Source: Microglena sp. YARC (lineage: Eukaryota > Chlorophyta > Chlorophyceae > Chlamydomonadales > Chlamydomonadaceae). From it: a DNA stretch of 64,000 bases. Below are positions 6,521 to 49,352 of this stretch, piece by piece; the first letter of the stretch is position 1; each line of letters begins with the position of its first letter. Location of the stretch: the NCBI GenBank assembly GCA_022414725.1, contig CM039467.1:6362931-6426930 (forward strand), given 5' to 3'. The notes below the pieces were generated by a model. It saw only the letters and a program-made list of their open reading frames with translations, ran no database searches and was not told the origin of the DNA. A program made the translations under genes and the position numbers.

Positions 6521-6900
6521 AATATCTATGGCGGTACTGCGCAGCTCCAAGCCCTCCCAACCGGGTCCTCATTACAGCCCTCAATGTAGCAGAGACTTAA
6601 CATCGCTACACTGTTAGGGCACCGAGGGATCTAATACAGTTTTGACTTTATACTGGTCATCGTTTGGGGAAGTGGACAGAACCTCGCCCCACCACGGCAC
6701 CTTCGCAACATGAACCCCATGCATGGCCGCTTGCTGGAACTCACCTTGTCCTGCATAAGTGGCGGTCCGGTGTGATTAAAGGGCGGTCAGGTTTTCCGCA
6801 GTATTCTGCTGTTGTCAAGCTCAAGGCCGTGTGACCCGATGGCCTAGAGGGCGTCCCCCTGTGCTTATTATCTGCTGCACCCTTCATGATCTAATTTAGG
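6521..6900. other. No gene seen; spacer resembling the sequence near 52640-52800
   Basis: I see no coding signal. Short blocks such as gccctcaatgtag around 6575 resemble gccctcgatgtag near 52661, and both lie near SINE copies, so this may be part of a composite repeat. Confidence 0.4.
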
Positions 6901-26936: not shown

Positions 26937-26993
26937 CAGGGTACTACTAAGTGCGTGCGGCGACGCGATTTTGCGCACGCTTTTTGAGCCCCA
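26937..26993 (+). mobile_element. hAT MITE fragment, left end only
   Basis: It begins with the family terminus cagggtact and matches the 56044-56229 copy up to tttttgagcccca, where it stops abruptly. The next bases belong to the copia polyprotein. The right half and right terminal repeat are missing, so this is a deletion or recombination junction. Confidence 0.7.
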
Positions 26994-26996
26994 TTC

Positions 26997-29900
26997 ATAT
27001 TCAAAAACTGGATCATGGACACGGGGGCAACATCCCACATGACAGGAGATGAATCCCTCCTGCACGACATAAAATACATCAGTCTTGTCAAAGTCCAAAC
27101 TGCATCAGGGTACACTTATATCACCCAGTCAGGGACAGTCATGATCAGAGGTGACAGTGGGAAAATCCATAAGCTTCAAAATGTTCACCTCAACAAAGAT
27201 TCTGCCACTCCTAACCTGTTCTCCATGGCATCAGCCATCAGATCTGACCCTTCCATGTCAGTCGTGTTCAATTCTGAAGTATGCACCATGTCAATCAACA
27301 ACAGAACTATCATCACTGGCCAAAAGAAAATAAACCTCTATCTCACCCCAGTTCTCAAACCGAATAAGACACTCATTCATGGAACCTCTCTTAGAATTGC
27401 CATGGCAGCCATCTCCCGCAACACACCACAGACAGCAGAACTTCTTCACAACAGATACGGACACCTAGCATACAGTAGCATAGCTAGACTGATATCTGAA
27501 AACATGGTGATAGAAACAGACGTCACCACAGCAGCCTGCAACAAAATGAAAAGGCAAACCTGTGAGATCTGTGTCCTCTCCAAAATGGACAAAAACACTT
27601 ATCCTACATCACACACACGTGCCACACGCCCCATGGTCATCCTGCACATTGATATGCGTGGGAAAATTAAGGTCCCCAGCCTCAATGGTAGCCTGTACTT
27701 CCAAGGCATTTTAGACGACCACTCCAAATATTCCATAGTCACCTTCCATAAAACCAAAGACACAGTAGCCAGAGACACCATCATAGAACTGGAGAGATAT
27801 GAAGACCTGATAGGAAACAAGATAGGAACCATATTCTGTGACAATGGATCTGAGTACATCTGCATCAAATTCAAAAACTGGTGCAAAAAGAAGGGAATCA
27901 CTCTCCAATTCACAGTCCCTGGCAATCCTTCCACCAATGGTGCAGCTGAACGCCTCAACCTCTGCATGACAGATCCACTGCTCTTCTGCTATCATCCAAA
28001 TTCCCTGACAGGTACTGGGCTGAAATGGTCAAGAATGCAAGCATCCTCAGAAACCTCAGCCCCACCTCTGAGTCAGACAAGACTCCCAACGAAATGTTCC
28101 ATGGTGTCAAGCCAAAGATTGATCACCTCAGAACTATTGGCTACACTGCATGTGTCCACATCCCATCCAAAACAAGAAAATAGAAATTTGCACCCTCAGC
28201 TAAGATCACCAGGCGGCTCATTAGATACTCTGATACCATAAAAGCCTATAGTGTTGTAAATTCTGATCACAAGATTTTTGATGCTAGAGACATCACCTTC
28301 AATGAATCTGAGAACCTAGCAGGACAGAAAGGATTTCCAGGACCAGATTCTGTTATCCTAGGTAACCACGAAGAAGATGCCCCCGTTGAGCATGATGAAG
28401 ACGATATCCCACCCTCAGAACTGAAGCAAGGAACGTGAAGAATACCAGGCCAGGATCCTCAGAATCAGAGAAGCACCTCCTCAATGGGGTTCCCCAGATG
28501 ATCTTGACACCTCTTATTACACACCTAGTACCATGCATCAATAAGCATCCATTCCTCCACAACACAGTGCACAAAACCTCAACAACACTGTAGAGCAGAG
28601 TAACGAACATAACCCTTCACAATCCCAAACTGCTGCTCCTACCAGCCCGATGGCACAACCACCTTCACATGCACCTGCCCACGCATCTCATCCAACTGCA
28701 CAGCCACCTGCACAAGCACCTGCACTACAAGATCCCAGCCCCCCTCTTAACACTACCCAGACTCAACCACGTCGCGGTGGGAGAGAAAGACATGCACCAA
28801 ATTACCTAGCATTCCTAGCTGCAGACCAGATTGTCATACCCAAAAATGAGAGAGAAGCCCTAGCAGGTCCCCAATCACTAGAATGGAGAGCTGCCATGGA
28901 AGAAGAACTGGCAGCACTTGCAGACATGAAATCCTGGACATTGGCAGAGCTGCCCCATGGCTCCAAATCCATTGGGACCAAGTGGGTCTTTGATATCAAG
29001 CAATCAGTCGATGGACAAATTGTTAGGTACAAAGCACGGCTAGTTGCCAAGGGCTATGCCCAGCGCCCTGGCATGGACTATGATGAGGTCTTTGCACCAG
29101 TTGCCAAACATGCAACCATCCGCTACATCCTGTCCATGGCTGCAGACCCCTCAGCACACCTTGCCCAACTAGATGTCTCCACAGCATTCCTAAATGGTGT
29201 GGTAGGAGAAGAACTGCATTGCTCTCAGCCACCAGGATTTGAGAGAGACCACAGAGTCTGCCGCATGGAAATGTCTCTATGGTCTCAAGCAAGCATCTCG
29301 CCAGTGGTATCTCAAGGTCAAGGAAGACATGACCGCCATTGGATTCAGAGAAGTTGTGTTGGACCAGGGTCTATTTCTCCTGCCTGGCCCATCCACCAGA
29401 CCACTCATCTGGGTCCTCCTCTGGGTTGATGATTTCCTCCTGCTGTCCTTCGACAAGGCCATCCTCCAGCAGTACAAGGATGCCATCATGAAACTGTACA
29501 AGACAAGAGACCTTGGAGAACCGTCTGTCTTTGTGGGATATGAAATCACCAGGGATGCATCAGCTGGCAGCCTGGCACACTCCACATCTGCCAATCCCGG
29601 TTCATACAAGACCTCCTCAGAGCAAACAGCATGCTCCCTGAGCCCAACAGCACCAGGTTCCCCATTCCCCTCCAGCCAGATGCTCCTCTCCTCTACCCTG
29701 AAAAGGGAACACCAGCCACTGGTCTCCCCCTTGCCCAAATTGTAGGATCCCTCAACTACGTGGCAGTCAACACCAGATCAGACATCGCACAGGCTGTCAA
29801 CAGATTGGCAAGACACGCACAGTGCTCACCCTCTACATGACCACATGGAAGCTGCAACTGGCATCCTCAAGTACCTCTCCTGACCATGGAATTACCTACA

Positions 29901-32061: not shown

Positions 32062-35000
32062 ATGACGAGGAAATCAGCTTCTGGAGGCACTGCGTCCTCG
32101 GATACTCAAATCTCCCTTGCCCCTGACTTGTCAGATGGGCAACCAGTCATTGCTATCTTCCAAGACCCAAAAACTAAATTCGACGTCGCCGGGAAATTAG
32201 CTGGCAGAGACATCGCTTCAGGTGTGACAACTTAACATAAGCCAGCCCCGTCACAGGCCGCTCAGCCCCTCCTCTCCCCCCCTCCCATGCCTTGATCGTT
32301 TAGATCTCCATAGCAAGAAGACTGCTGAAGGAGCTAACCCTGATAAGTCTTGTCTGTACCATCGCTTCGCATGTCTCATCTTGTTCCATCTCTATTTGCG
32401 AGTGCTACAGACCAATTCGGTAGTTAAGGTCGCAACAGGAAACGAGGCTCCCTACTATACCTCAGCTTCATCACTTGGCTTCATTTGTTTTGGTCCTCAC
32501 ATGCTTGGTTCCCACCACCATTTTGTAATGCATGTCTTGAAAGAGCCTCGATAGCCCTACGCTAACGGTTCCCACCCTTTTCATATGCTCGTTAGCTGCT
32601 CCACACAATGTGCCGGAGAGAAGAGGAGAAGTCTTCAATCGCGACGACTGGCTACCTATTAATGGCGAAGGTTCCGTCAGTTACGTGAGAAGAATTATGT
32701 TCGAGGGCCATGTGTGGTGTATGAGGAAAACGTGTTGTCCGATTGGGGAATCTCATGGTTATATCCGTATGATACACCACAACTCACCCCCCTTTCGAAG
32801 GTCCGACGCCCACCTCCTGTCTGAGATGTGCACGTCCGGCCGAGCCAGCCCCCTCCTAGCGAAGGTTTCCTTCATGCGCCAGCCCGGGATCGAACCCGCG
32901 CGGAACTGGCGAAGGCCCCAACTTCCGTCCAGTCGATCCACTCGACCAAGCTCGAAACCAAATGTGGTGTATGAGGAAAACGTGTTGTCTAATTGGGGAA
33001 TCTCATGGTTATATCCGTATGATACACCACACCATACCTGTGCCGACGCCTTCATGACGACTTCATGCGCCCAGATTGGCCAGATCATGTTGAACACCCC
33101 CTCAGCGCTGTTTGCAACAGGCCTGTACTCCGGCAGCATATCGATGTTCATTTTCTTGCTGTTTGGATTCTGCTAAGTTTCCTTCCCTGAGGCATAACAA
33201 TGTTCTAATAAGCTTTTGATGTGAGGAGTTGAAAACTGTGCCATTGTTAGTGGTGAAGGTTGACATTTATGACAGAGACACTGTTCCCGATTGTGTTGTT
33301 CTGACCACACTGACAAAACCCCCCAATCTGATGTCCAATACAGCATCTGTGTTCTTACTTTGAAGGTTTTGCAAAATCACATATCTCAATATCTGATATC
33401 TGTTTGATAACCTGGACATTCTGCTTGGACAATGTTAGCACTTTGGGGGAGAGTAAGAGTGATTAAAATTGTGAAAGGCAAGTAAGCGTCACATTGGAAT
33501 CCACACGCCCGCTGCGATGGCAGGAAGGGGTCTGCTAAGATGGGAATGAATTGGATCTTTAGTTATTTTGAATTCACCCTCACTGTTGCAGCAGTGCCCT
33601 GAGACATAACTAAATATTAAAAATTCTCATTCAATTTTGGTTTCTGTGGTTCGTAGTGCAGCTTTTCACACTCTGCCCCATGAACCATGAACAACCAGGG
33701 CCCCAGCTTACTGAACATGCATCCCCAGCAATGTGTAAATATGCTTTGGGTCTACTGGCATCGTGCATGGTTTAGCAAGCTGCCATGGGAGTCCCTATGT
33801 ATGCAGCAGCCACAACGTGTCATGTAACTGACCTCGTGGATTATGTTACTGGCATCATGTTACTGACCTCTTGGATTATCTTCCCGTCCGCAGGACCTTG
33901 TACGTACTGTTGGCTCTATATCTGCAGTACAAGGCTGATATGGTGAGACCCCTTGTGCACTGTTTTTCTTTTCGGCTGCAAGCAGCAGCTTCTAGGCAGT
34001 TCCCCTGGCTTGCTTGTCAGCCAAACCTAAAGCAACCTAGAGCACCTTGAAGCTGACGTCGTCAGCTTTCTAGCGCTGCTGATTTGTTTTTAGCGTAGCC
34101 CAGTGGCTGGCTCAGGAAGCTGCCTAGAAGCTGCTGCTCGTAGCTGAAAAGGAAACTAAGCCCTAGTGCTGCTGCGATCATCTGGGTGCACCCAAGCCAT
34201 CGCTTTTCCCCCCCGCTACGAGCAGCAGCTTCTAGGCAGCTCCCCTGGCTTTCTACCCAGTCAATCCTATTGCAATGTAGTGCAACTGGAAGCTGACATA
34301 ATCATCGTTCCAATACTGTTGACATTTTGGGGCTTAGCCCAGTGGCTGGCTCATGGAGCTTCCCCGAAGCTGCTGCTTGAGCGGAAAAGAAAAGCTATGT
34401 TCCAAACCTCTCCTTTGTTCCTCTCTTACTGTTTCTTGTAAGGCTATGCACAGCAGCCTCTAGCTAGCTCTCCGATCGAGCTACAGAGTCTGTACTTGGT
34501 TGCCCATAATGCCCATAATGCCAGCTTTCAGAAACACTACCTAGCTCCAAGCTTCTCCCACTGATGGGGAATGGAGCTGCCTATAAGCTTTTACATCTAG
34601 CCAAATGGAAACAGGCCTCCCAACTAGCTGATCAGGACAGACAGGCCCTGTAACACAGCTCTCCTCGTTTTGCTACCTGCAGGTGCACATTAACAAAACA
34701 TATTAGCTTGGGAATGTGTTCAACTATACTTCAATTCATATGCATGTACGGTGCAGTCCAGGGGTAGTCGAAAAGGCTAAAGGGATTTGCCCAATCTTGA
34801 ACAATCAAGATAACCTCTAGATGACCAGGAGGTTCTAATTGAAAGAAACACTACAATAAATTAATAGTACCCCTTGTTACGAGGCGTGAGGTTGAGGGGG
34901 CCAGCCCGTTTGCTTTCACTGGGGCCAACCACCAACAGGGGGGGGGGGGGGGGATATCATCCACCTGGTGAAAAACAACAATAGTACCGGGATAGTACTA

Positions 35001-38000
35001 AACATTTCCTCCCTTTGCGATCATAGATCAGAGCTGGTACCTGGTGGGACGAAGACGGCAGGCACAAGAAGGTTGTTCAGTATTTTGAGGTCTTCAAGCA
35101 CTTCGTTGGCCCCTGGGGCTTCTGGTCGACTCTGGTCGTTGTGGTCATAGCACTTCTAGGAGTCTGCCAGGTCCAGGTAAGTCGACTACACTGTTTCTTT
35201 TTTGGGGCTACAAGTTGCAGCTTCCACCCAGCTCTATTAGCCAGCGGCTGAGTTGAGCCCAAAGATTGCATTTGTACTTGACAGCCTGTCATGCCAGCTT
35301 TCAGAAGCACTAGCTAGTTTCAAGTTCGTCCATAGGGTGGGCGAAAGGAGCTGCCTAGAAGCTACTAAGCGTAGCCTCAAAATGAACAGTGGTAGATCAA
35401 TACCATCAGAAGCAGAAGCAGAAGCCACAGTGACGGATTCTGGTTTTCCCCTGCCCCAGTGGGGAAATCTATACCCTCCTCCAACAGCTCATTGCAGTTT
35501 GCCATCATCAGGAGCATGGGCTTCTTGAATAGTAGAGCCCTTGAGTGCCCTGATAGAGCTTTACAAATGAGGTGTACTAATGAGATGTACTAAAAAATTA
35601 CACTCTAGATGTACAAATGAGGTGTACTAATGAGATAAACTAAAAAGTTACAAACGAGGTTCACAAATGAGGTGTACTAATGAGATGTACTAACACGTTA
35701 CAAATGAGGTGTACAAATAAGGTGTACTTATGAGATGTACTTACACGTTCCAAATGAGGTGTACAAATAATGTGGACTTATGAGATGTACTAACACGTTA
35801 CAAATGAGGTGTATAAATAAGGTGTACTTATGAGATGTACTAAAACGTTACAAATGAGGTGTGCAAATGAGATGTACTAAAACTATAATAAATCATGGAC
35901 CTAGCATGACTGTCACCTGTCTCCGGATATTTAACCTTGTTTCTAATAATGGTGACTTTACCCAGCTGTGGCGTACGGGAGGGTCCCCTTAACACCACGC
36001 CCCTCGAGGCATTATCTTTTTTTCAACCTTGTTTCCACGATTTTGGATAACAGATGCTGCCCTGTACATCTCCTCCTCTCTCTCAATATGTACCGACCAA
36101 TATGTACCCACCACCCACCATCTCCTCCACCCTCCTGATATGTACCCACCACCCACCATCTCCTCCACCCTCCTGATATGTACCCACCACCCACCATCTC
36201 CTCCACCCTCCTGATATGTACCCACCACCCACCATCTCCTCCACCCTCCTGATATGTACCCACCACCCACCATCTCCTCCACCCTCCTGATATGTACCCA
36301 CCACCCACCATCTCCTCCACCCTCCTGATATGGACCCGCCACCCACCATCTCCTCCACCCTCCTGATATGTACCCACCACCCACCATCTCCTCTATTGCT
36401 GTTCTCTGTTCCTTGTGGCTTTGCTTGGCATTGGCTGCACCACCAATCACCATCCACCACCACCACCACCACCACATTCAGCACCCACCCATCACCATTC
36501 ACCACCACCACCACCATTCACCACCACCACCACCATTCACCACCACCACCACCACCACCTAACACCCACCCACTGTGTATTCATTGACATATTATTACAT
36601 GTGCCACCAATATGTACCCACTACCCAACACCACCCAATAGCACCACCACCCACCACCACCCACCCACTATAATCCATGACCAGAATATCGCATGTGCCA
36701 CCAACATGTACCCACTACCCACCACCCACCACCTCCACCACCACTCACCACCACCACCCTCCCACTAAAATTCTTCCGCAGATTATCGCATGTGCCACCG
36801 ATATGTATTACATTGACAAGTCCAGATCCAAGAGAGAGTGGTCACTCATCTTCGGAGGCGTGATGGTGGGTACTGCGGTTATCACTTTATTTGACCCTTT
36901 TAACCCTTTGATAATTCAGAGGAGAAAGGTCTTGATAATTCATAGGTGAATACCCTTTGATTATTCATAGGAGAAGACCCTTTGATTATTCATAGGACAA
37001 GATCCTTTGATTATTCATAGGAGAAGACCCTTAGATTATTCATAGGACAAGATCCTTTGATTATTCGTAGGAGAAGACCCTTTGATTATTCGTAGGAGAA
37101 GACCCTTTGATTATTCATAGGAGAAGACCCTTCGATTATTCATAGGACACGATCCTTTGATAATTCGTAGGAGAAGACCCTTTGATTATTAATAGGAGAA
37201 GACCCTTTGATTATTCATAGGAAAAGGGTCTTGATTATTCATAGGAGAAGACCCCCCAAGATGTTATGTATCAGGCTTGTCTTGGGTCAAAAATGGTTTG
37301 TCTATGACAACTGCTTGGCTTGGCTTGGCTTGGCTTGGCTTGGCTTGGCTTGGCTTGGCTTGGGTCAACAATGGCTTGTCTATGAAACAATGGCTTGGAT
37401 TGGGTCAACAATGGCTTGGCAATGACAATGGCTTGGCTTTGCTTTGCTTGGCCTGGGTCAACAATGGCTTGTCTATGAAACAATGGCTTGGATTGGGTCA
37501 ACAAAGGCTTGGCGATGACAATGGCTTGGCTTTGCTTGGATTGGATTGGCTTGGGTCAACAATGGCTTGGCAATGAAAATGGCTTGGCTTTGCTTGGCTT
37601 GGCCTGGGTCAACAATGGCTTGTCTATGCCAATGTGATGGGTGTACTTCTCATAACTGATGTGGCTCAAATGATTTGGGCAATTGCGATGTGTTTTCAAC
37701 GACAGGATGTTCCGCAGCCTATTTTTGCTACCCCCTAGCCTGCAGTACACATACATGCTATCGGTATTCAATTTGGATTGTCGTGAGACTGGATAGAGGG
37801 ACTCAACCTCATGACTCTGCCAACAGAGTAATTGCTCTGTCATTTCCTCTTTTGAATTTAATTTAATTTAATTGAATTCTTCAATTGCCAATAGAGTAAT
37901 TGCTCTGTCATTTCCTCTTCTGGGGGGTGGAGCCTCCCCCAACTGGGGGGCGGGACCCCTAGGGTCACCCTGTTGTCCGATTGTCTGTCTGTCTGACTAA

Positions 38001-41000
38001 CGACCGAGACGAAGCCAGGCGTGTCAGCCAACCGTCTCGTAACTAACTGGCTCCGGTCCTTCCATTCCGTTGCCACATGTTGTTCCGATAGCCAACACTC
38101 TCCGCCAATTTTCTGCGTCGCTTGCGACGCTGCCTAGTACTTGTTTTCAAATGCTGTGCTCTGTTCTTCGTGGCTTTGCTTGGCATTGGCTACCCCACTG
38201 ATCACTACCCACCATCACCACAGCCACCACCACCAACACCAGGTGTTCACAATGTCGGCTCTGCCACGCTTCGACAAATTTTGTTTGCTCAGCATCGTTG
38301 GCCTGCTCGGCACTGGCATGACTGCCATCTACATCATTGTTCCCCACCAATCACCACCCACCACAACCACACGCACCACCCGCCACCCACCACAACCACC
38401 ACACCCAACACCACCACCACCTCCCACCGTCTACCACCCACAGGTGTTTACAATGTTGGCTCTGCCACGCTTCAACAAGTTTCGTTTGCTCAACATCATC
38501 GGTCTCATCGGCACCGGCATGACGGCCATCTACATCATCGTGGATTCCAGTTACCATGGGTTTGACATTGAACACATCAATGGGTGAGTCTAGAAAAGTG
38601 TAATTGTTTCTTGTTTAGATACCATGGGTTTGACATTGAACACGCCAACGGTCGGGTCTAGAAAATGAGTAATTGTTTGTTATGTAGATACCATGGGTTA
38701 GACTTTGAACACGTCAACAGGTGAGTCTAGAAAATGAGTTATTATTTCTTGTTTGGATACCATGGGTTTGGCATTGAACACGCCAACGTGTGAGTCTAGG
38801 AAAAGAGCAATTGTTTCTTATTTGGATACCATGGGTTTGACATTAAACACGTCAACATTCGAGGCTAGAAAATGAGTAATTGTTTCTTGTTTGGATACCA
38901 TGGGTTAGACTTTGAACACATCAATGGGTGAGTATAGAAAATGAGTAATTGTTTCTTGTTTGGATACCATGGGTTTGACGTTAAACACGTCAACAGTCGA
39001 GGCTAGAAAATGAGTAATTGTTACTTGTTTGGATAGCATGGGTTAGACTTCAAACACGTCAACGTGTGAGTCTAGAAAAATAGCAATTGTTTCTTGTTTG
39101 GATACCACGGGTTTGACATTGAACACGTCAACAGGTGAGTCTAGAAAAAGAGTAATTGTTTCTTGTTTGGATACCTCATATATAGGGTCTGGCCTTTACA
39201 GCGGCAATGGTTAGTCTAGAAGAAGCATAGGCGTCACATTCTTATGTTGTCACAGGCCCCTATTACAGGCTTATATTGTTACATGCTCCTATTACAAGCT
39301 CCTATTGTAACAGGATCTTATTGATACAGGCTACTATTACAGGCGCCTATTGTTACATACTCCTATTACAAGCTCCTATTGCCACAGCCTCCTTCTGACA
39401 CTGCCTCCTATTACAAGCTCCTATTGCCACAGCCTCCTTCTGACACTGCCTCCTATTACAAGCTCCTATTGCCACAGCCTCCTTCTGATGCTGCCTCCTA
39501 TTACAAGCTCCTATTGCCACAGCCTCCTTCTGATGCTGCCTCCTATTACAAGCTCCTATAGCCACAGCCTCCTTCTGACACTGCCTCCTATTACAAGCTC
39601 CTATAGCCACAGCCTCCTTCTGATGCTGCCTCCTATTACAAGCTCCTATTGCCACAGCCTCCTTCTGATGCTGCCTCCTATTACAAGCTCCTATAGCCAC
39701 AGCCTCCTTCTGACACTGCCTCCTATTACAAGCTCCTATTGCCACAGCCTCCTTCTGACACTGCCTCCTATTACAAGCTCCTAAAGCCACAGCCTCCTTC
39801 TGAGACTGCCTCCTATTACAAGCTCCTATTGCCACAGCCTCCTTCTGGCACTGCCTCCTATTACAAGCTCCTATTGCCACAGCCTCCTTCTGATGCTGCC
39901 TCCTATTACAAGCTCCTATTGCCACAGCCTCCTTCTGATGCTGCCTCCTATTACAAGCTCCTATTGCCACAGCCTCCTTCTGATGCTGCCTCCTATTACA
40001 AGCTCCTATTGCCACAGCCTCCTTCAGGCTCCTGACGGTATCGTGGATGTCTCATGCGCAATACACATGCTTCTATATCTATTGGTTAGGCTATGTAGTA
40101 TTCCCCAGCATCAATCAGACAGGTCTGCGATTCGAGCCCTGTCCAGGTTCCCAAATTCAGACTTGCCGCCCTGGAAGAGGTAGATCCTTCCACTGTGCAG
40201 TCGCCGTAGTAGTAGTCCAAGCTCAGACGCAGTTGCCGTCTGGGAAACCAAATATCTTAACATAGTAGCCATTGTCCAGTATGTACAGTACACACAAATA
40301 GGAGGGTTCCTTCACGTCCTGTGGCAGCTCGTACAAATGTTCGATTGTCAAGTTTTGTTAGGCTACCCCTGAGCTGTAAAAACATACAAAGAAACAACTT
40401 TACATGTATATTTGTAGACATACTCGGCGGTGTCGGTGGGTGCGCTTGGGGTGTGTGTGTCTGTGTACCGTACTGACTGCAATATGTAACGTTTTTACAA
40501 TTTAACGTTTTTATTCGGTGACGACGCACGCGGGTCATCCGTCGAACTCGGGACTGTCGAATCGGCGGTATGGTTTTGTAAGGCCTCGAGCACCTTGCGA
40601 CCCGGGTTAGAACCCTGGTTAGAACCCGCGGAACCCGGGTTAGAACCCGCGGAGTCCCATTTTGGCCCCTTCGCGTCGCCAATTTAAAAAGCGTTAAATT
40701 TTGCAGTCAGTATGGTATTTCAGTGCAGGTAAGGGGGGCACGAGGGACGGAAGGGATTGCGCAGGGAGGGGTATGTTTGTCTGTTCAAGGGGGCATGGAG
40801 GTGTGGCATGAGGGACGGGGCATTTGGCTGTACATGCCTGTAGTTGTAGACAAATGCTGGACAGGGTTATGTGCACACTGAAAATGTTGTGTAGACATAA
40901 TTGTTTCAGTACAAACGTGTGAGCGAGTAACGTTTGCAAGTGAGAGACATGTTAACCGAACAAATTGTGAACACAGAAATGTCCATGCCGTTTTGTAACT

Positions 41001-44000
41001 AAGTAAGAGCCTAAATTACCCTTGGGGGGTGGGGTGGGGATGGCCAACGGCCGCACAGGCTACCCTACTAGAACATACCTACATACGAAAAGACAGACAG
41101 ACAGCCAGACAGACAGACAAGCAGGCAAACAAACAAGCAAACCACGATAAAACAAACAAACAAGCAAGCAGGTAAGCAAACAAACAAACCCAGCAACAAA
41201 TTATCCCTCACTATTGTATTATGCAGCTGGGCCATTGACACTCAGCACTGGTTCAACGGCGCAGCTGTCCTCCTAGCTTGCTTGGGCAGTCACGGAATAA
41301 CCCCAGCAACTAATCATCCCTCACTAATGTATTATGCAGCTGGGCTGTGGACTCTCAGCACTGGTTCAACGGCGCAGCTGTCCTCCTAGCTTGCTTGGGC
41401 AGTCACGGAATCATGTTTGAAATCATGGAGTCGATGGAGCAACCAGCACATTTCAAGACCTCTTACCATGGTGCTTGGGTTTGGACAGTCTTTGTCGTCG
41501 TCCCTCATTCCATCCTCGTGAACTTGGCGTATCCCCGAACCCTAGCACTGGGCGTACGTGAGTTCCACTTGTATTATACAACACTTATAAAATTGCTTTT
41601 AAACAAGATTTAATTCCGATTTTTTATATAAACACTTATCATTAGGGATCGGCATCTAATATTAGTCTGTAAAAAACCCAATGTTAACTAATATTAACTA
41701 ATATTAGAATGTTAGATTTCAGTTTTGTTTTTGCCCAAATCAACTTTTGAAAATGGAATCAAATATTGCATTGAATAATTAAGCTAGCAATGGAGCCGGA
41801 TTTTTATGGGAGCCAATCTGGATGGTTACAAAAATGAAACCAAGCATTTGTATCGCGGAACTAGCGTAACACGGAATTGGCCCGTGGCCTAATGCCCAAT
41901 CAAAATTGTGTCCAAACAGTGTGGGCTTGGCCAGCAGAGGTAGTGTAGTAACACTATGTCTGAATCACTAGAAAAAGCTACGACCAGCAGCTCCTAGGCA
42001 GCTCTGTGAGCGAGCCACTGGGCTATGTCCTAGGATTTTAGTGGTGAAAGAAATTTAATTATGCTAGCTTCGAGGCGCACTAGCTTGTTTTGGTTTGGGC
42101 TGAATAGCCAGCCAGGGGAGCTGCCTAGAAGCTACACCCCATCTCGGAAGTAGTTGCCATTTCTGTGGACATCTGCTGCTCAGAGTTGGCTACGTGAGAA
42201 CTACGGTTTACTCGTCATCATCATCCATGTCAGTGTGTGTGTCTGTTTGTTTGTATGCATGCATGTGAGTGTGTTTGTGTGGGTGGGTGGGTGGGTGGGG
42301 GGGGGGAGGGCAGTCCCATGGCAGTTTGTGTGTATTTGTGTGTGTGTGTGGGGGTGGGGGTGGGGGTGGGGGGGCAGTCCCATGGCAGTTTGTTTGTATT
42401 TGTGTGTGTGGGTGTGTGTGTGTGTGTGTGGTGGTGGTGGGGGGGGGGGGCAGTCTTATGTCAGTGAGATCTCTAAGTAGTCCAACGTTACTAGGCAGTC
42501 ATCCTTCACTTTGGATGAATGGTGAGCCATGATCCCAACCATTTTCGCTGCCTTCACAACAGCTCCAAGAGTGCCTGGGTCATTGCTGATGACCATGTCG
42601 AATTGTTCATAGTAAGTGAACGTGCTCAGGTTAAGGTGAGCTAGTAGCAACTCCGGCTTCCACAGTGAGCCGGAGTTTTGCTGCATTCCATCGTCGTTCA
42701 GTTGCTTGAGCAACGTTCTACCGCGCTTGGCCGTGGCTTTCGGGGGCATCGCAGTCGCGCACCAACAGAAACGAAAATACGAGAACTCGCGTTGCCTAGG
42801 CAAGCTGTCAGGGTGCGACAAGGTAGGAAGATGCGAGAAGAAAGAAAGAGCAACGCCGTGCACGCGCAGAGCAGCGCGCAAGGCGCAAGAAAGAGGAAAA
42901 GGCCCTGAAGTACGGGCAGTACAAAATCCGTCTAATATTAGTCGGCTCCGCCGTCTAACATTAGTTAATGTTAACTAATATTAGTTGTTAACTAACATTA
43001 ACTAACATAGCCGATCCCTACTTATCATGCTTGGGTGTTGACTGTCTTTGTCGTGGTCCCTCATTCTTTCATGGTCAAGCTGGCTTCTCCCAAACCCTAG
43101 CACTGTGCGTATGTAACTTCCCCAAATATCTTTCAATCTCGTAGGTTTGTGGGGTTGCCTCGAAAACCCTTATCCTGACGTAAAACCCTTGTCCTGTTTT
43201 TGGCGGAGCCCCCTCTACTGGGGGGTGGGAGCCCCCAGGGTTACCCGTTGTCAGTTTGTCCGATAAACTAAAAAATTGAAGCCTTACACGTCAACCAGCT
43301 GTCTCATAACTAACTGGCTTCAGTTGCTTTCTTGCTTGCTTGCTTGCTTTCTTGCTTGCTTGCCCTTTGCTTGCCCTTTGCTTGCCCTTTGCTTGCCCTT
43401 TGCTTCCCCTTTGCTTGCCCTTTGCTTGCCCTTTGCTTGCCCTTTGCTTGCTCTTTGCTTGCTTGCTTGCTTGCCCTTTGCTTGCCCTTTGCTTGCCCTT
43501 TGCTTGCCCTTTGCTTGCCCTTTGCTTGCCCTTTGCTTGCTTGCTTGCTTGCTTGCTTGCCCTTTGCTTCTTATTTTTATGATTGGTTGAAAGTCCTGTT
43601 GTAAAATTGGACTGTAGGAAAAAGTCATTCTGATCCCTATGCTTGCAAAACTGTGACCCCAAATAATGCAATTGGGTCTGTGCATTTGTGAACATAATCA
43701 GTCACTCCTACAACGGCCCAAAACGTGCAAAGAATCAGTTATGTTTTGCTTTGTACTGCCCGTATCGTCTTACAGTACCTACCATAACCTGCTACGACAA
43801 TGCATGCTTGAACACTGTATGCTTGAAAGGGAAAACGTGAAAAGCAGGCCTACCTATTCATTTCCCCAAATAACCTTTTCGACTGCGGCAGGCTCTGTCC
43901 CAGATTTGTGTAATGTAATCTGTTCGAATTTGGGAACTCCGTAGTAAAAAATAGAGGTTTTACTTATTCTTGTTCCCAATCTCTGAGCAAACCCAAATCT

Positions 44001-47000
44001 GAGTATTCATATGTTGACCCGTTGATGTGATTAAGCGAGCATATTTGTAGCTTCTGCATTTTTAGCATTTGCATTTAGTATTTGCATTTTAAGCATTTGC
44101 ATTTGCATTTGTAGGATTTGGATTTGTTGCATTTTCAGCATTTGTATGTGTAGCATATTTATTGCCACTAGGCTAGAGTTCATAGGTCTAAACATATGCC
44201 CCAAAAGCCCAATAATTAGGCACTAATGGAGATACTGCAAAACAATTCGAAAAACGAACTTTTAATTTGTCTTCAAACATCCACATCTGAAATTTGATTT
44301 CGATTTGGGATCAGAAGGCGAATTTTCAGGTTGGGAAGTAGGATTCAGACTTTGGGTTGAACTCAACTTTGACTGCTACTCCAGTAGATTCAGAGGCCCA
44401 GGCTGAAGCGCAGCCTCCGACCTTGTGGTAGGGGTCCGATTAGCCTTTCGTCACGCGAAAACTGTATTAGCGATAGCTCGCATAGTTATACTGCTATTTC
44501 ATTAGATTCAGAGGCTGAGGCTGAAGTGCAGCCTCCGACCTTGTAGTAGGGGTCTGACTAGCCTGCGGAAACTTTATTCGCTATAGCTCGCATGACCTCA
44601 CACCCCTTTCACCTACCACCCCCTGTCCCTCTCCCCCTCACCCCCTCACCCCTTGCCCCCTCATCCCCCATCCCCTCTGCCCCTCCCCTGTCCCCCCCCT
44701 CCCTCACCCCTCACCCCCAGCCCTCCTCACCCTCACCTTCGCCCCCTCATCCCTACCCCCCTCTACCCCCCCCCCCCCCCCCTCTGCCCCCTCATCCCTC
44801 TACCCCTCTACCCCCCCCCCCCCCCCCCTCGCCCCTGTCCCCCTCACCCCTCGCCCCCTCATCCCTCACCCCCTCTACCCCTCACCCCCTGCCCCCCTCT
44901 CGCTCACCCCTCGTCCCTCATCACTCACCCCCTCTACCCCTCACCCCCTACCCCCCCATCCCTCTACCCCACACCCCCTCCACCCCTGACCCCCTGACCC
45001 CCTCTACCCTCACCCCTGTCCCCCCCCCACCCCTGCCCCCCTACCCCTCACCTCTTGTCCCCCTCTACCCCTCAGCCCCTCGCCCCCTCACCCCCTCCAC
45101 CCCTGCCCCCCTCTACCCCTCACCCCCTGTCCCCCCCACCCCCTCACCCCCGACCCCCCTACCCCTCACCCCTTGTCCCCCTCTACCCCTCACCCCCTGC
45201 CCCCTCTACCCCCTCACCCCCTCTACCCACCACATCCTCTACCCCCTCTACTCCCTCTACCCCCACCCCTCTACCCCTCACCCCCATCCCCTCACCCTCT
45301 CTACCCCTCACCCTGTACCCCACACCCCTTCTACCCTCACCCCTCACCCCTCTACCCCTCACCCCCTCTACCCCCCACCCCTCCACCCTCGAACAGAGAA
45401 CGTGTATCAGGTACTGCCCATGTCTGATGCCAAACGGATATCCGTGTACCTCATGATCGTCCACCAGTATGTGGCCTTTGCCATTTACTCCATGCCCCTC
45501 AGTTTTGCGTGGGAGAAGCTCCTAAGGGTTCACACCAAGCCATTCTGGATCCGCTTCATCGCCAGGGTGCCAATTGGTAGGTTGTAACTGTATGGCTGCA
45601 TGCATGACTGCATTGAGACACTAGTATGTGGCCTTTGCCATTTATTCCATGCCCCTCAGTTTTGCGTGGGAGAAGCTCCTGAGGGTTCACACCAAGCCAT
45701 TCTGGATCTGGTTCATCGCCAGGGTGCCAATTGGTAGGTTGTAACTGTATGGCTGCATGCATGACTGCATTGAGACACTAATATGTGGCCTTGGCCATTT
45801 ACTCCATGCCCCTCAGTTTTGCGTGGGAGAAGCTCCTGAGGGTTCACACCAAGCCATTCTGGATCTGGTTCATCGCCAGGGAGCCAGTTGGTAGGTTGTG
45901 AGTGAGTGTTTGACTGCATGCATGACTGTTTTGAGACACCAGTACGTGGCCTTGGCCATTTACTCCATGCCTCTCAGCTTAGCTTGGAAGAAGCTCCTTA
46001 AGGTTCACACCAAGCCATCCTGGATCCGCTTCATCGCCAGGGTGCCAGTTCGTAGGTTGAGTGACTGTACCAGGATTGTAGGTAGGTAGGTTTTTTGTCG
46101 TTGATTGGTAGGTTTTGTTTGTAGATTGGAAGGTTTTGTTTGTAGATTGGAAGGTTTTGTTTTGTAGATTGGTAGGTTTTGAGCAATAGTACTGGATTGG
46201 TTTATAACGAAATTAACCAGTGTCACAATGCGCTGTGTGCCCTTTTTGCCTTCTGAGCTCAACACCCCCAGGTGGCTTCATCTGGTTCTTGGCGATCCTC
46301 GCCCCTTTCTATGGCGCCATGAATGCGCTGTATGCGTTTTTGCCCTCTGAGCTCAACACCCCCCCATGCACTACCCAGGTTGCTTCATCTGGTTCATAGC
46401 GATTCTCGCCCCTTTCTATGGCGCCATGAATGCGCTGTATGCCTCCTTGGCCACGCCCTTCCTAGGCTTCATCTTGCCTTGCAGTACCATCCTCTGGGTC
46501 TATCGCACCAAGGAAGCTCGTGACAACGCTATCGTCAAGCCCTACAAGTAAGTACACCTGTTTGCATCACTGCATGGCTAGCCTAGTCAGAAATGCCCCC
46601 CCGACCCTCACAGGCCAGGGCTTTTCCCGCTTTATGTAGTGATCGGTAGTTTTGACCGTTTTGGCGAAATGATCTCTATAAAATGTAAATATATGTGTGC
46701 CCTAATTGGCCCTAGAAAGCTACGAAAGGCTACAAAGCAATAAAAGCTATAAAAAGCTATAAGAAGCACTAAAACGCTGTCCCTATAGGAGGCCTACAAA
46801 CATAAATCTATAAAGAAAAAAACTTACTCAGATTTTGAAAAAAGCCCTTAGTCAGAAAGGGTCCCCCAAACCCCCCGGGCTCCATGCAAAACAAGTCCTA
46901 CGCAGCGTCGCAAACGACGCGGAAAATTGGCGGAGTGTGTTGTCAACGGAACGAAAGGTGGCAACGATGGAGCTGACCAAAGCGAGTTAGTTACGCGGCC

Positions 47001-49352
47001 GTTGGCTGACATGTCGGGTTTCAACTTTGTTCCCGGTCAAACGGACAAATGGGTAAACATGGGGGCTCCCGCCCCCTTGAAGAGGGGGCTCTGCCAAAAA
47101 CGCAATCATCAAGCCCTATGAGTACGTGCAAATACAAAAAACAAATAGTACGCCTTATTACAAGGCGTGGGGTTGAAGGGCCCCCCCGAACCCAACTCAC
47201 CATTTGCCTAATTGCTTTTCTTTTCGGCTGCGAGCAGTGGCTTATATGCAGATCCTTGAGCCAGCCACTGATCTGAACCAACATATTTTAGCAGTTCTGG
47301 ACAGCTTAATGTGTCTGCTACAAGGTGCACAAGGTAGCATTTGGTTTGCCTCAATTGCCAGTCAGAGGAGCTGCTAAGAAGCTGTTGCTCGTAGCTGAAA
47401 AGAAAAGCTATGATTTGCCTCTGTACCAAACTCCGACCTTGTGCCCCACCTCCCCTTCCCCTCAAATCCCCTGACCCCAGCCCCACCCTCACCCCCACCG
47501 TTTACTTCGCCCCACCCCACCGTGTACTTCATCACCACCCCGCCGTGTACTTCACCCATCCACCGTGTACTTCTCCCCGACCCCCACCGTGTACTTCACC
47601 CCACCCCCACCGTGTACTTCACCCCCACCGCCGCCGTGTACTTCACTCCACCCCCACCCCCACTTCGTAACCACCAGATTTTTCCAAGCCTACAACTATG
47701 TGCTTTGGAAGGCCATCAACGTTTTTATGGTGCTCATCTTCCTCGGATTTGGAGGCACATCAATTTATTACAGGTAACATTTTAATCAATTTTTCGATTT
47801 AATCGTTTTTTTTTTAAATCAATTTATGACAGATAACATTTTATTTTGGATGAAACGTGTTATCGGTAATTTATTATAACATGCGACTACATGCTTTGGA
47901 AGGCCATCAATATTTTCATAGTGCCCATCTACCTCGGATTCGGAGGCACATCAATTTATTAAAGGTGACATTTTAATCAATGTATTTATTATTTGTATAT
48001 TATCATTTTTAAATCAATTTATTACGGGTAACATTTTCTTTTGTATGGCATGTATTGCCGGTAATTTATTAAAACATGCTACTGCATGCTTTGGAAGGCC
48101 ATCAATATTTTCGTGGGGCCCATCTACCTCGGATCTTGAGGTATATCAATTTATTACAGGCAACATTTAAATCAATTTATGCATTATTTGTATAATATCA
48201 TTTTTTATTTGTGTAATCAATTTATTATAGGTACCAATTTTTTGTGTGCTATGCATTGGTATATTTTGCATGCAACCTTTTCTCAGCCAAGATCTTGCCA
48301 GGCCTCAGTTATTTCGCTGGATTAGTTCATTTAATCAAAGACATAAAACATGAAATACTTTGGGGGAAAAAAATATTTTTAATATGTGTGTTATAATGTC
48401 TTGTCAATTTGTGGACTGCATGGTTGTATGTAATACATTGGTTGCATAGACTGCATAACTGCACACTGCATAATAACTGCATGGAATCCAAATCGCTTGG
48501 CCTGCATGGAATTCATTACTGGATGGATTGTATAAATGCATGGAAGTCATCACTGCATCACAACATAAGCTGCATGGACTGTATCATTGGATGAACTGCA
48601 TGGATGGCATAAGCTGCATGGACTGTATCATTGGACAAATTGCATGGATGGCATAAGCTGCATGGACTGTATCATTGGACAAACTGCATGGATGGCATAA
48701 GCTGCATGGACTGTATCATTGGATGAGCTGCACGGATGGCATAAGCTGCATGGACTGTATCATTGGATGAGCTGCATGGATGGCATAAGCTGCATGGATG
48801 GCATAAGCTGCATGGACTGTATCATTGGATGAGCTGCATGGATGGCATAAGCTGCATGGACTGTATCATTGGATGAGCTGCATGGATGGCATAAGCTGCA
48901 TGGACTGTATCATTGGATGAGCTGCATGGATGGCATAAGCTGCATGGATGGCATAAGCTGCATGGACTGTATCATTGGATGAACTGCAGGGATGGCATAA
49001 GCTGCATGGACTGTATCATTGGACAATCTGCATGGATGGCATAAGCTGCATGGATGGCATAAACTGCATGGATGGCATAAACTGCGTGGATGGCATAAGC
49101 TGCATGGGCTGTATCATTGGCCAAACTGCATGGATGGCATAAGCTGCATGGACTGTATCATTGAATGAATTGCATGGATGGCATAAGCTGCATGAACTGT
49201 ATCATTAGATAAACTGCATGGATTGAATACACTGCATGCTGAAGGATTCACCCCCCTCTTGTTTCAGCTCGCTGCTGGTGAAGCAGAACTACAGTACCTG
49301 GGGAGCATTCGCTGAGTGCTACGGTTGTCCGGTCGCCCGTCCGACAGGCTAA
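32062..49352 (+). CDS. AUX1/LAX-like amino-acid/auxin permease, 12 exons
   Basis: Exons in phase: 32062-32221, 32596-32684, about 33042-33172, 33894-33942, 35027-35176, 36782-36865, 38444-38583, 41340-41553, 45399-45576, 46379-46547, 47678-47773, 49268-49352, giving about 514 residues (plant AUX1 is about 485). The product should be a multi-spanning plasma-membrane H+ symporter of the AAAP family. Residues lining up with AUX1/LAX are SCAQIGQIML (exon 3), FWTLYVLLALYLQYKADM (exons 3/4), IIACATDMYYID (exon 6), LIGTGMTAIYI (exon 7), WFNGAAVLLACLGSHGIMFE (exon 8), MIVHQYVAFAIYSMPLSFAW (exon 9), FIWFIAILAPFYG (exon 10), FLGFGGTSIYY (exon 11) and TWGAFAECYGC (exon 12). The ATG is the first after an in-frame stop. 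Most introns have GT-AG ends. Exceptions: exon 3 has no AG acceptor, and its donor reads CTAAGT. Transport substrate is inference. Confidence 0.82.
32713..33031. repeat. 69-bp direct repeats around a SINE-like insert in intron 2
   Basis: Nearly identical 69-bp copies lie at 32713-32781 and 32963-33031. Each is bounded by an imperfect inverted repeat (tgtggtgtat ... atacaccaca). Between them is a segment whose minus strand has a box-B-like gggttcgatccc and a box-A-like tggtcgagtgg, so it looks like a tRNA-derived SINE or tRNA relic. The right copy directly abuts exon 3, where no normal acceptor AG can be found. Confidence 0.65.
33963..34155. mobile_element. Inverted-repeat element (AGCAGCTTCTAGGCAGCTC family), copy in intron 4
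   Basis: Long terminal inverted repeats of about 45 bp are visible: left ttcggctgcaagcagcagct and right ctgctgctcgtagctgaaaa, with inner halves ggcagttcccctggct and agtggctggctcaggaagct. The core is about 190 bp and has no ORF, which is the structure of a MITE. I could not settle the target-site duplication. Confidence 0.75.
34202..34395. mobile_element. Inverted-repeat element, second copy in intron 4
   Basis: This is the same family as the 33963 copy: left arm gctacgagcagcagcttcta, right arm ctgctgcttgagcggaaaag. Two copies lie within 50 bp of each other, and a third, degraded one follows at about 34441-34610 (gcctctagctagctctccga ... gagctgcctataagctttta). Confidence 0.75.
35194..35381. 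mobile_element. Inverted-repeat element, copy in intron 5
   Basis: The left arm is ggggctacaagttgcagctt and the right arm is gagctgcctagaagctacta, directly after the exon 5 donor. The middle contains cagctttcagaagcactagc, a block shared with the copies at 34441 and 51752, so two subfamilies may exist. Confidence 0.65.
35555..35885. repeat. Tandem array, about 50-bp unit, intron 5
   Basis: The unit resembles gttacaaatgaggtgtacaa followed by ataaggtgtacttatgagat and gtactaacac. About six copies are seen with small differences. It is non-coding. Confidence 0.75.
35950..36013 (+). mobile_element. SINE 3' fragment in intron 5
   Basis: It carries gtggcgtacgggagggtccc and taacaccacgcccctcgagg cattat, the tail end of the tRNA-derived SINE. 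The tRNA-like head is missing, so it is truncated at its 5' end. Confidence 0.55.
36085..36780. repeat. 38-bp array and CCA-rich tract with echoes of exon 6
   Basis: From 36085 to 36405 a 38-bp unit (gatatgtacccaccacccac then catctcctccaccctcct) repeats about eight times. From 36440 to 36780 the sequence is CCA/CAC-rich. Within this tract, copies of the start of exon 6 appear at about 36588 (acatgtgccaccaatatgta) and 36685 (atatcgcatgtgccaccaac). The second still has an AG before it. The true exon 6 starts at 36782 with attatcgcatgtgccaccga. The 38-bp unit itself begins like this exon segment. Confidence 0.75.
36895..37260. repeat. 24-bp tandem array, intron 6
   Basis: The unit resembles gaccctttgattattcatag gaga, with about 14 copies. 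The first unit grades into sequence just after the exon 6 donor. Non-coding. Confidence 0.75.
37305..37640. repeat. GGCTTG-rich array, intron 6
   Basis: Runs of ggctt alternate with a higher-order unit containing gggtcaacaatggcttgtct and atgaaacaatggcttggatt. Non-coding, although frames stay open on both strands. Confidence 0.75.
37918..38138 (+). repeat. Dispersed repeat with GCGTCGC hairpin, intron 6
   Basis: It starts around ctggggggtggagcctcccc, continues through gaccgagacgaagccaggcg and ttccattccgttgccacatg, and ends in tctgcgtcgcttgcgacgct. The last part forms a short hairpin (GCGTCGC/GCGACGC). Relatives lie at 31500 (fragment), 43197 (5' part), 46888 (minus), 52365 (fragment) and 53760 (minus). 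I see no terminal inverted repeats or ORF. It may be a SINE-like or other non-autonomous element. Confidence 0.65.
38243..38341 (+). repeat. Partial duplicate of permease exon 7 (5' part)
   Basis: Preceded by an AG (accaacaccag), it encodes VFTMSALPRFDKFCLL, then SIVGLLGTGMTAIYII in the same frame as the complete exon 7 at 38444-38583. It stops before the exon's last third and has no good donor. It is either an acceptor-side echo of exon 7 or a remnant alternative exon. Confidence 0.75.
38584..39185 (+). repeat. 69-bp array repeating the 3' end and donor of exon 7
   Basis: The last part of exon 7 (taccatgggtttgacattga acacatcaatgg) and the start of intron 7 (gtgagtctagaaaa) recur with starts at 38620, 38690, 38758, 38827, 38897, 38965, 39034, 39103 and 39171, a regular 69-bp period. 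Several copies keep a GTGAGT donor, for example near 38711, 38928 and 39134. 69 is a multiple of 3. Confidence 0.88.
39230..40030. repeat. 45-bp tandem array, intron 7
   Basis: The unit is gccacagcctccttctgaca followed by ctgcctcctattacaagctc ctatt, with about 15 well-conserved copies after a looser start near 39230. Because 45 is a multiple of 3 and the unit lacks stops in some frames on each strand, 144 to 220-codon frames are open on both strands. It sits inside intron 7, so no gene is called. Confidence 0.85.
40031..41226. other. Remainder of intron 7, no gene seen
   Basis: Contains a fragment of the dispersed repeat with gttaggctacccctgagctg near 40347 and a tetranucleotide-rich tract (acagacag, acaaacaagc) at about 41085-41195. 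No coding signal. Confidence 0.5.
41227..41302 (+). repeat. Partial duplicate of permease exon 8 (acceptor side)
   Basis: It follows tattatgcag, exactly as the true exon 8 does at 41340. It reads WAIDTQHWFNGAAVLLACLG in the right frame, then diverges after SHGI. The repeat period is 113 bp, including the 3' end of the intron. Confidence 0.82.
41972..42140. mobile_element. Inverted-repeat element nested inside the hAT transposon
   Basis: The left arm is gctacgaccagcagctccta and the right arm is gagctgcctagaagctacac, the family seen at 33963. Its presence inside the hAT element dates it as the younger insertion. Confidence 0.7.
42456..42749 (-). CDS. Small ORF inside the hAT element, unknown function
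   Basis: An ATG at 42747-42749 opens a 97-codon frame starting MPPKATAKRGRTLLKQ and ending VTLDYLEISLT. The start is basic, followed by a segment (LLAHLNLSTFTYYEQFDM) that looks like ordinary protein, not repeat translation. It begins about 270 bp inside the right terminus and reads inwards, as a transposase would. It could be the N-terminal remnant of a transposase or an accessory protein of the parent element. I recognise no motif, and no BED finger or DDE residues are visible. Confidence 0.4.
   Translation of the reverse strand: MPPKATAKRGRTLLKQLNDDGMQQNSGSLWKPELLLAHLNLSTFTYYEQFDMVISNDPGTLGAVVKAAKMVGIMAHHSSKVKDDCLVTLDYLEISLT
43021..43112 (+). repeat. Degraded duplicate of the 3' part of exon 8 and its donor
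   Basis: The sequence cttatcatgcttgggtgttg then actgtctttgtcgtggtccc matches the end of exon 8 (cttaccatggtgcttgggtt ... gtctttgtcgtcgtccctca) and continues to aaaccctagcactgtgcgta, matching ccctagcactgggcgtacgt at the exon 8 donor. The hAT element landed at the left edge of this duplicate. Confidence 0.8.
43197..43325 (+). repeat. Dispersed repeat with GCGTCGC hairpin, 5' part, intron 8
   Basis: It matches the first half of the 37918 copy (gggtgggagcccccagggtt, then cgtcaaccagctgtctcata and actggctt) and is cut off where an 11-bp array begins. Confidence 0.6.
43325..43572. repeat. 11-bp array (CTTTGCTTGCC), intron 8
   Basis: About 20 copies of ctttgcttgcc mixed with gcttgcttgcttgc. Open frames on both strands are consequences of the repeat. 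Confidence 0.8.
43573..44590. other. Intron 8 interior, no gene seen
   Basis: Includes a short array of gcatttgcatttgtag-like units near 44050-44160 and a duplicated block (cagcctccgaccttgtggta gggg) at about 44411 and 44530. No coding signal. Confidence 0.5.
44590..45395. repeat. Pyrimidine-rich (CCCCTCACC/CCCTCTACC) array before exon 9
   Basis: About 800 bp are made almost entirely of cccctcaccc, cccctctacc and C runs. The plus-strand frame stays open for over 250 codons as Pro-, Ser- and Leu-rich sequence and runs into exon 9, which would mislead gene finders. The tract forms an extreme polypyrimidine region upstream of the exon 9 acceptor. Confidence 0.85.
45577..46060 (+). repeat. Three further tandem copies of the 3' part of exon 9
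   Basis: The segment tatgtggcctttgccattta ... caggtgccaattggtaggtt recurs with starts at 45468 (true exon), 45625, 45782 and 45943, a period of 157-161 bp. Copies 2 and 4 are preceded by an AG (cactag, caccag). Copies 1 and 2 keep the gtaggt donor after the same phase. Copy 4 is open throughout (SMPLSLAWKKLLKVHTKPSW) and also ends at gtaggt. Confidence 0.88.
46073..46190. repeat. Short tandem array (TTTGTAGATTGGAAGGTT), intron 9
   Basis: Four to five imperfect copies of ttgtagattggaaggttttg. Non-coding. Confidence 0.65.
46272..46378 (+). repeat. Partial duplicate of exon 10 (acceptor side)
   Basis: It follows an AG (acacccccag) and encodes GGFIWFLAILAPFYGAMNAL in the correct phase, then runs into tctgagctcaacacccc and a second acceptor just before the complete exon 10 at 46379 (GCFIWFIAILAPFYGAMNAL). 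The period is 107 bp. The first copy retains GG at the position where the second has GC. Confidence 0.85.
46888..47097 (-). repeat. Dispersed repeat with GCGTCGC hairpin, intron 10
   Basis: Reverse orientation relative to the 37918 copy: cgcagcgtcgcaaacgacgc, gaaaattggcggagtgtgtt, and agagggggctctgccaaaaa at its other end. It is close to full length. Confidence 0.65.
47212..47408. mobile_element. Inverted-repeat element, copy in intron 10
   Basis: The left terminus is gcttttcttttcggctgcga and the right terminus is gctcgtagctgaaaagaaaa gc, the best-preserved outer ends of the family. The body differs from the 33963 copy. Confidence 0.72.
47500..47660. repeat. CCGTGTACTTC-rich array before exon 11
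   Basis: About seven copies of accgtgtacttcaccc-like units in a C-rich tract directly upstream of the exon 11 acceptor at 47677. Confidence 0.7.
47774..48240 (+). repeat. Tandem duplicates of exon 11 and its donor
   Basis: Exon 11 sequence (tgctttggaaggccatcaac ... tcaatttattacaggtaaca) recurs with starts at 47701 (true), 47892 and 48088, a period of 191-196 bp, plus a shorter tail copy near 48210. The copies carry changes that break the frame or donor (ttattaaaggtgaca, ttattacaggcaaca). Confidence 0.85.
48400..49230. repeat. GCATGGA-rich tandem array, intron 11
   Basis: A unit of about 44 bp (ggcataagctgcatggactg, then tatcattggatgagctgcat ggat) repeats about 14 times after a looser start near 48410. 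Non-coding. Confidence 0.82.

Follow-up and report, generated by a model that had tools for sequence, protein, structure and literature searches.

Junction-spanning tandem copies of exon edges in a permease gene, and at exons elsewhere in the genome, of the green alga Microglena sp. YARC

The introns of the chlorophyte Microglena sp. YARC carry tandem copies of the edges of the exons that they adjoin (hereafter echoes), which in the gene analyzed most closely hold exon and intron sequence alike and so reproduce the splice junction itself. With a probability that we place at roughly 0.85, these echoes are traces of local tandem duplication that is frequent, blind to sequence and active widely in the genome, and that is filtered by purifying selection. 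The type of event is a known one; what is unusual is its density genome-wide. Our analysis started from a stretch of 64,000 nucleotides, here called the window (GenBank assembly GCA_022414725.1, contig CM039467.1, positions 6,362,931 to 6,426,930 of the forward strand), and from a permease gene within it, and was then extended to a sample of exons from the whole assembly.

The gene in question codes for an AUX1/LAX-like amino-acid/auxin permease (Table 1). Joined, the exons of the model amount to 1518 nt with an open frame of 505 aa, in which the Pfam Aa_trans domain is recognized at E=1.2e-31; five database relatives share 30-46% identity with this protein, the nearest named one being from Haematococcus lacustris (43%), while another is named 'auxin influx carrier (AUX1 LAX family)'. 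Every junction accommodates a canonical AG or GT except the donor of exon 3 (33173), which reads CTAAGT in place of a GT donor; the joined protein at this point (GFWTLY) is still like its relatives, and a sequencing error, a mutation or a non-canonical donor may account for it. Exons 2 and 3 are separated by an LTR-like element (32713-33031) with two near-identical terminal copies of ~69 bp at 32713 and 32963, each starting with TGTGGTG and ending with CACCACA, and with CCAT adjoining each end of the element. It falls between the codons of an EGH / TCADAF stretch that is conserved in the relatives; this may represent an interruption of the gene, or else a GT-AG intron spanning 32685-33074 may remove the stretch.

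Table 1. The permease gene, its exons and its exon-edge echoes (positions in the window)
Feature	Position	Strand	Remarks
AUX1/LAX-like amino-acid/auxin permease gene	32062..49352	+	Hand-built 12-exon model; Pfam Aa_trans and database relatives
Exons 1-4	32062-32221, 32596-32684 (or to 32708), 33075-33172 (or from 33043), 33894-33942	+	
Exons 5-8	35027-35176, 36782-36865, 38444-38583, 41340-41557	+	
Exons 9-12	45397-45576, 46379-46547, 47678-47773, 49268-49352	+	
Exon 6 acceptor array	36508..36807	+	Two copies (36508-36616, 36598-36710) upstream of the real junction at 36782; period about 94; 26 nt of exon per unit
Exon 7 acceptor echo	38207..38541	+	One copy (38207-38340), parent 38385-38541; period about 201; 98 nt of exon head
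Exon 7 donor array	38552..39175	+	69-bp unit, 9 units counting the parent; unit of about 32 nt exon tail and 37 nt intron head; GT in 5/8 copies (copy alignment) or 5/7 (pairwise count)
Exon 8 acceptor echo	41183..41411	+	113-bp unit, one copy; 72 nt of exon head; 92% identity
Exon 8 donor echo	43021..43121	+	One copy; parent 41462-41566
Transposon-like insert within the exon 8 donor array	41644..43019	.	10-bp terminal inverted repeats AGGGATCGGC
Exon 9 donor array	45462..46069	+	157-bp unit, three copies downstream of the parent; unit of 115 nt exon tail and 42 nt intron; GT in 3/3 copies
Exon 10 acceptor echo	46227..46442	+	One copy (46227-46335), parent 46322-46442; 64 nt of exon head; period 107 in the exon part, 95 in the intron part
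Exon 11 donor array	47695..48246	+	191-195-bp unit, two copies, one with GC for GT; 79 nt of exon tail

Echoes were sought by comparing each permease exon plus 60 nt with the gene and then re-aligning the matches, an approach chosen because TRF by itself catches only 5 of the 8 junctions concerned. They are present at 8 of the 22 junctions (8/20 if exons 2 and 3 are counted as a single exon split by an insertion), namely at the acceptors of exons 6, 7, 8 and 10 and the donors of exons 7, 8, 9 and 11. These are exactly the junctions that had been singled out in the preliminary description of this DNA; its estimate that about half of the junctions are affected proves too high, the actual share being 36%. 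The matches have E-values from 6e-12 to 1e-80 and identities of 77-97%, and the units consist of exon together with intron sequence and span the junction, as expected from the earlier portrayal of mutated, tandem and junction-spanning copies. That the copies carry exon sequence is likewise confirmed, with the range of 30-130 nt formerly given for it corrected to 26-115 nt. The same comparison of each exon plus 60 nt with the gene yielded no interior-only copy for any permease exon and no echo at the nine junctions from the exon 1 donor through the exon 5 donor. Whole-exon copies with both splice sites are absent from the gene, which contains partial copies only. The echo of the exon 8 donor lies 1.5 kb from its parent because a transposon-like insert is situated in between; as read by eye, this insert is flanked by the direct repeat ACTTATCAT.

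Beyond the window, we searched the genome assembly (568 Mb, 2390 contigs) by Pfam family and drew from it a sample of 69 exon cores, comprising 20 kinesin, the best 30 CCT and 19 transporter matches. The kinesin exons were taken in order of E-value, skipping rows with internal stops and one row within an already chosen region, and the sample includes some overlapping loci (L012/L025, L014/L026, L019/L020 and L072/L077). When these loci were aligned with themselves after masking repeats of period 15 or less, nearby self-copies emerged for 37 of the 69 cores (kinesin 14/20, CCT 14/30, transporter 9/19). Their orientation is absolute: where the left edge is copied (21 cores), the copies are always upstream, and where the right edge is copied (28 cores), they are always downstream, with no core showing the opposite arrangement. 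In all, 49 of 138 core edges are matched, which is probably a lower bound, since the end of a profile match is no exact guide to the end of the exon and some core edges do not coincide with junctions. Interior-only copies occur in 8 of the 69 cores, several of these cases apparently stemming, by eye, from profile matches that overrun the exon, and a whole-exon copy occurs in just one. The earlier proposal that tandem duplication across a junction lengthens an intron while one complete junction is kept, and that this is a general route, thus finds support well outside the permease gene.

Each of the arrays examined matches its own exon edge and adjoins it, and a canonical AG or GT could be placed by hand at 25 kinesin edges. 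Over 50 arrays, the spacing to the nearest copy has a median of 180.5 bp and the exon part a median of 73 nt (range 19-180), with the spacings at the permease exon 8 donor (1556) and at locus L023 (625, 1146) including other sequence. For example, kinesin locus L032 has eight acceptor copies, each made up of a C-rich intron tail, the AG and about 65 nt of exon, and a tRNA-synthetase-domain gene (PF00133) has four junction-spanning acceptor copies, two of them with an in-frame TGA. A check at the protein level, based on profile-match tables of 236 rows (kinesin 114, CCT 62, tRNA-synt_1 41, Aa_trans 19) and run without 14 long, near-full-length kinesin rows, two full-length CCT rows and the kinase table, gave 21 copy-parent pairs within 3 kb. 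Ten of these have a common profile start with the copy upstream and seven a common end with the copy downstream, while the opposite arrangements number zero; two further pairs match at both ends and two at neither. The 17 edge-sharing copies trace to 12 parent exons, and the DNA sample includes 4 of these as well.

Briefly, we advance the following mechanism to account for these patterns. Local tandem duplication would generate units of about 60-200 bp, which would often be iterated into arrays. An event across a donor would turn the locus into exon - unit - unit - intron, such that the exon body retains the first junction and the exon tails further on are absorbed into the intron; an event across an acceptor would be the mirror image, with the last junction remaining functional. 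Since the protein would be unchanged as long as the spliceosome uses the junction beside the exon body, junction-spanning events would survive and lengthen the intron, whereas events interior to an exon would be removed because they alter the protein. The copies would thereafter decay roughly neutrally, and their fixed orientation would be set by the need for an intact exon beside its junction. At the level of DNA, slippage or microhomology-mediated repair would be the presumable cause.

A competing reading has exon edges as specific targets, with some feature of splicing or of the boundary (R-loops, a change in composition or reverse-spliced RNA) promoting duplication there; we regard it as unlikely. 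A comparison that bears on it used pseudo-exons of matched length (<=400 nt) placed in the flanks of 64 loci, with positions masked over more than 30% skipped and with five full-length or single-frame loci (L011, L012, L025, L054, L059), none of which had copies, left out. As the flanks contain echo arrays themselves, this control compares coverage rather than founding events. A match of any kind was found for 37 real exons versus 35.0 pseudo-exons (p=0.71, 64 loci), and edge-type matches numbered 49 versus 44.3. Given that pseudo-exons are matched about as often as real exons, the duplication process does not strongly favor exon edges, and the systematic targeting of edges suggested by the preliminary description is not supported. 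Where real exons do depart from pseudo-exons is in their interiors and orientations: interior-only matches number 8 in real exons versus 21.9 in pseudo-exons (p=0.0001), and matches in the 'wrong' orientation 0 versus 17.6. The prevalence of edges over interiors is partly a matter of geometry, and the remainder fits selection against interior duplications.

The permease gene itself gives a comparable picture. TRF arrays of period >=30 cover 35% of its intron bases, 20% of its exon bases and 0.3% of the flank at 12.1-32 kb, and 5 of its 22 junctions fall within such arrays, as against the 8 with echoes by alignment. Further, a unit that touches an exon crosses a junction in 66-100% of its placements, as calculated for seven pairs of unit length (69-201 bp) and exon length (84-218 bp) from this gene. 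Because of this coverage and geometry, the edge pattern is about what randomly placed arrays would produce; the matches are far beyond chance, but the preference for edges is not, and the refuting condition set in the preliminary description, that exon edges be duplicated no more than random intron sequence, is borne out as far as this gene and the 64 loci go. Some observations do lean toward targeting: among kinesin edges, 23 of 40 have copies, coverage by tandem arrays declines away from kinesin exons (0.54 to 0.40) and CCT exons (0.37 to 0.19), and tandem repeats are dense in the introns of Chlamydomonas reinhardtii and Volvox carteri, where they are reported to be commoner toward intron ends (PMC3887541). 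The fall in coverage makes a mild preference for exon neighborhoods possible. Against this, the transporter loci display no such fall (0.38 to 0.46), and arrays are frequent far from exons. Outside the gene, too, tandem arrays take up much of the unmasked sequence, with 25% and 39% of bases in the two flanks of 10 kb beside the window and 32-73% at 52-64 kb of the window, but 0.00 in the 12-32 kb block.

The fate of the splice sites in the copies informs a second set of alternatives. Retention was counted pairwise; a MAFFT alignment of the copies had mis-set the AG positions in L044. The count was made without unsure junctions (the donors of L014, L019, L027, L065 and L073 and the acceptor of L026), the donor of L083 and the acceptor of permease exon 6 yielded no junction-reaching copy, and three donor copies that end before the junction were left uncounted. 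Of 80 acceptor copies, 72 retain the junction AG, compared with 281/363 for the remaining AGs of exon parts (Fisher p=0.013) and 31/49 for those of intron parts (p=0.0005); the copies lack mutual independence, however, and the control values may be depressed by dinucleotides close to the ends of the alignments. For donors, the junction GT is kept in 64 of 78 copies versus 182/237 in exon parts (p=0.43) and 257/345 in intron parts (p=0.19). Thus, the decoy splice sites are not eroded beyond background, and the acceptor AGs may be retained better than it. Since the copies keep AG and GT at least as well as neighboring dinucleotides of the same kind, splicing would have to ignore intact decoys: the echo copies would go unused in mRNA, and exon definition would probably pick the correct junction. 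Reed and Maniatis reportedly found in 1986, with duplicated splice sites in vitro, that proximity and exon sequence affect the choice.

With respect to the reading frame, 17 of the 50 arrays have a nearest-copy spacing divisible by three, which is the chance value (18/50 if the permease exon 7 donor is scored at its nearest copy, 69 bp away, rather than at 137), and there is no frame preference. In kinesin genes, parent and copy agree at 90.7% in the exon parts and 86.0% in the intron parts of acceptor units, and at 87.6% and 84.5%, respectively, in those of donor units, a pattern that fits neutral copies of a constrained parent exon. When copies are compared with one another, 9 of 11 acceptor arrays and 5 of 10 donor arrays show greater identity over the exon portion than over the intron portion. 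This excess is not predicted by simple neutrality; low-complexity intron tails and their alignment may lie behind it.

One pair of kinesin paralogs suggests that an exon and its echo may, on occasion, recombine. The genes at L087:525-1591 (C1:190771084-190772150) and L041:1452-1727 lie 25.7 kb apart and align without gaps between -524 and 158 (counted from the exon core), differing at 11 of 683 positions. From 159 to 238, L087 is identical, with zero mismatches over 80 nt, to the donor echo of L041 (shifted by 128 bp), while 5 positions distinguish it from the L041 exon; past 238 there is no match to either. The simplest reading of this one case would be recombination between the exon end and its echo, with loss of the normal exon end. 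Taken together with the retention of AG above background and the greater likeness of the exon parts, it raises the prospect, in our view a doubtful one, that acceptor copies are maintained as decoy or staging splice sites or through exon-echo gene conversion, in which case introns would act as a live reservoir that rewrites exon ends.

The same three observations could also be marshaled for copies that are functional as alternative or recursive splice sites, or as alternative exon ends, and are kept by selection or gene conversion. We consider this quite improbable: the spacings have no preference for the frame, the retention of GT is not significantly above control, two of the four synthetase copies contain in-frame stops and, as far as they were read, the acceptor copies of L032 are not followed by a donor of their own, so that their use would put spacer into the mRNA.

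Tandem duplication of an exonic AGGT-containing segment is a known model of intron birth (Rogers 1989 and Hellsten 2011, as cited in PMC4974935), and it has to be weighed whether the introns themselves arose in this way. This is highly improbable. The Rogers model needs a wholly exonic unit, whereas the units in the alga hold intron as well as exon sequence, which suggests that the intron is older than the duplication; moreover, the introns of the kinesin loci L040 and L041 have an equal profile position and phase, by eye, but an acceptor array is found in L041 only. Finally, an assembly artefact, in which repeat-bearing reads were mis-stacked at junctions, is scarcely credible, for although satellite blocks in the window have 13-22% indels and possibly a poor consensus, the TRF-listed echo arrays have only 0-3%, the copies diverge from their parents by 3-23% and the structure recurs at dozens of loci in a fixed orientation, whereas an artefact would predict near-identical copies and no rule of orientation.

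We therefore return to sequence-blind duplication under purifying selection, and to how its products compare with known systems. Intron evolution in general has been reviewed (PMC3488318). The closest counterpart that we encountered is the RdRp gene of potato (PMC4974935), where one duplication of an intron 3' end and the 5' part of the exon gave rise to a new intron. The potato unit and the acceptor echoes are alike in comprising the 3' end of an intron and the 5' part of the next exon with the splice signals included, and units that span the boundary head to tail with their parent, as in potato, are seen at the 8 permease junctions with echoes and among the 37 of 69 cores elsewhere with self-copies. 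They differ in that the potato case is a single event with a new intron and an exonic insert, demonstrated by RNA reads, whereas in the alga dozens of junctions are involved, frequently through multiple copies that seem not to be translated, and the apparent result is a longer old intron. As in the alga, the intron repeats of C. reinhardtii and V. carteri lie toward intron ends; that work (PMC3887541), insofar as its text was accessible, counted repeat motifs according to their position and related these to the regulation of splicing, and units with exon sequence and splice sites are not described in this part of it.

The echoes also resemble minisatellites, or variable number tandem repeats, in their head-to-tail units of tens to about 200 bp, and TRF indeed finds tandem arrays of similar units here; unlike minisatellites, however, echo units include coding sequence and a splice junction and stand in a fixed orientation to the exon. 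Tandem exon duplication, including mutually exclusive exons, shares with them the local duplication of exon sequence within a gene. It was considered and rejected as an account of the echoes: whole-exon copies are rare in the alga (1/69 exon cores, 2/21 pairs from the tables), and those in the permease gene are partial. Introner-like mobile introns, a single sequence family inserted at many unrelated sites, were considered too and rated at most a weak account, each array examined being matched to the exon edge next to it. Among the titles and abstract openings returned by a literature search that left most subscription journals outside its reach, there was no report of exon-edge echoes on a genome-wide scale.

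These results bear on several questions. The growth of introns is usually put down to transposons, whereas here a large share of the intron sequence is recognizable tandem duplication (35% of intron bases in the permease gene by TRF). With about a third of the sampled edges involved, the contribution of junction-crossing duplication to intron expansion can be measured. Should the sample be representative, intact duplicate splice sites would lie between the sites to be joined in thousands of introns of this alga, and the alga would have to choose by position (exon definition) and not by the quality of the site. The duplicates amount to a natural experiment on splicing. On the practical side, gene finders and homology searches in such genomes meet repeated fragments of exons, and fragmented gene models may result.

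A few further observations concern the surroundings of the permease gene and the exons sampled. A Copia-type retrotransposon with gag pre-integrase, integrase core and RVT_2 domains occupies 26988-29429 of the window, and tandem arrays are almost absent from the block at 12-32 kb around it. The satellite blocks mentioned above (3210-12017) are built of 78-bp and 26-bp units, with the indels between units as given by TRF. An interspersed repeat of ~250 bp at 40096-40346 recurs at 39 or more other sites in the genome with 77-82% identity. Among the CCT matches, the CCT-beta gene (L054:1480-3066, C6:13962293-13963762) is a single intronless frame of 528 aa whose coding region is free of self-copies, as is that of a second near-full-length match, L059; the other CCT matches, unlike these two intronless ones, are mostly partial exons. 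The CCT-beta protein has a fully identical (100%) counterpart in EukProt, and the next in Chlamydomonadales is that of Chlamydomonas eustigma at 87%, in keeping with a chlamydomonadalean green alga; C. eustigma, UWO241 and ICE-L are grouped in a single clade in PMC11228838. Lastly, full-length rbcL is found in four places on three small contigs (C996, C1833 and C2356), two of them on C996 in opposite orientation, which suggests that the contigs are plastid ones carrying an inverted repeat, or else duplicates.
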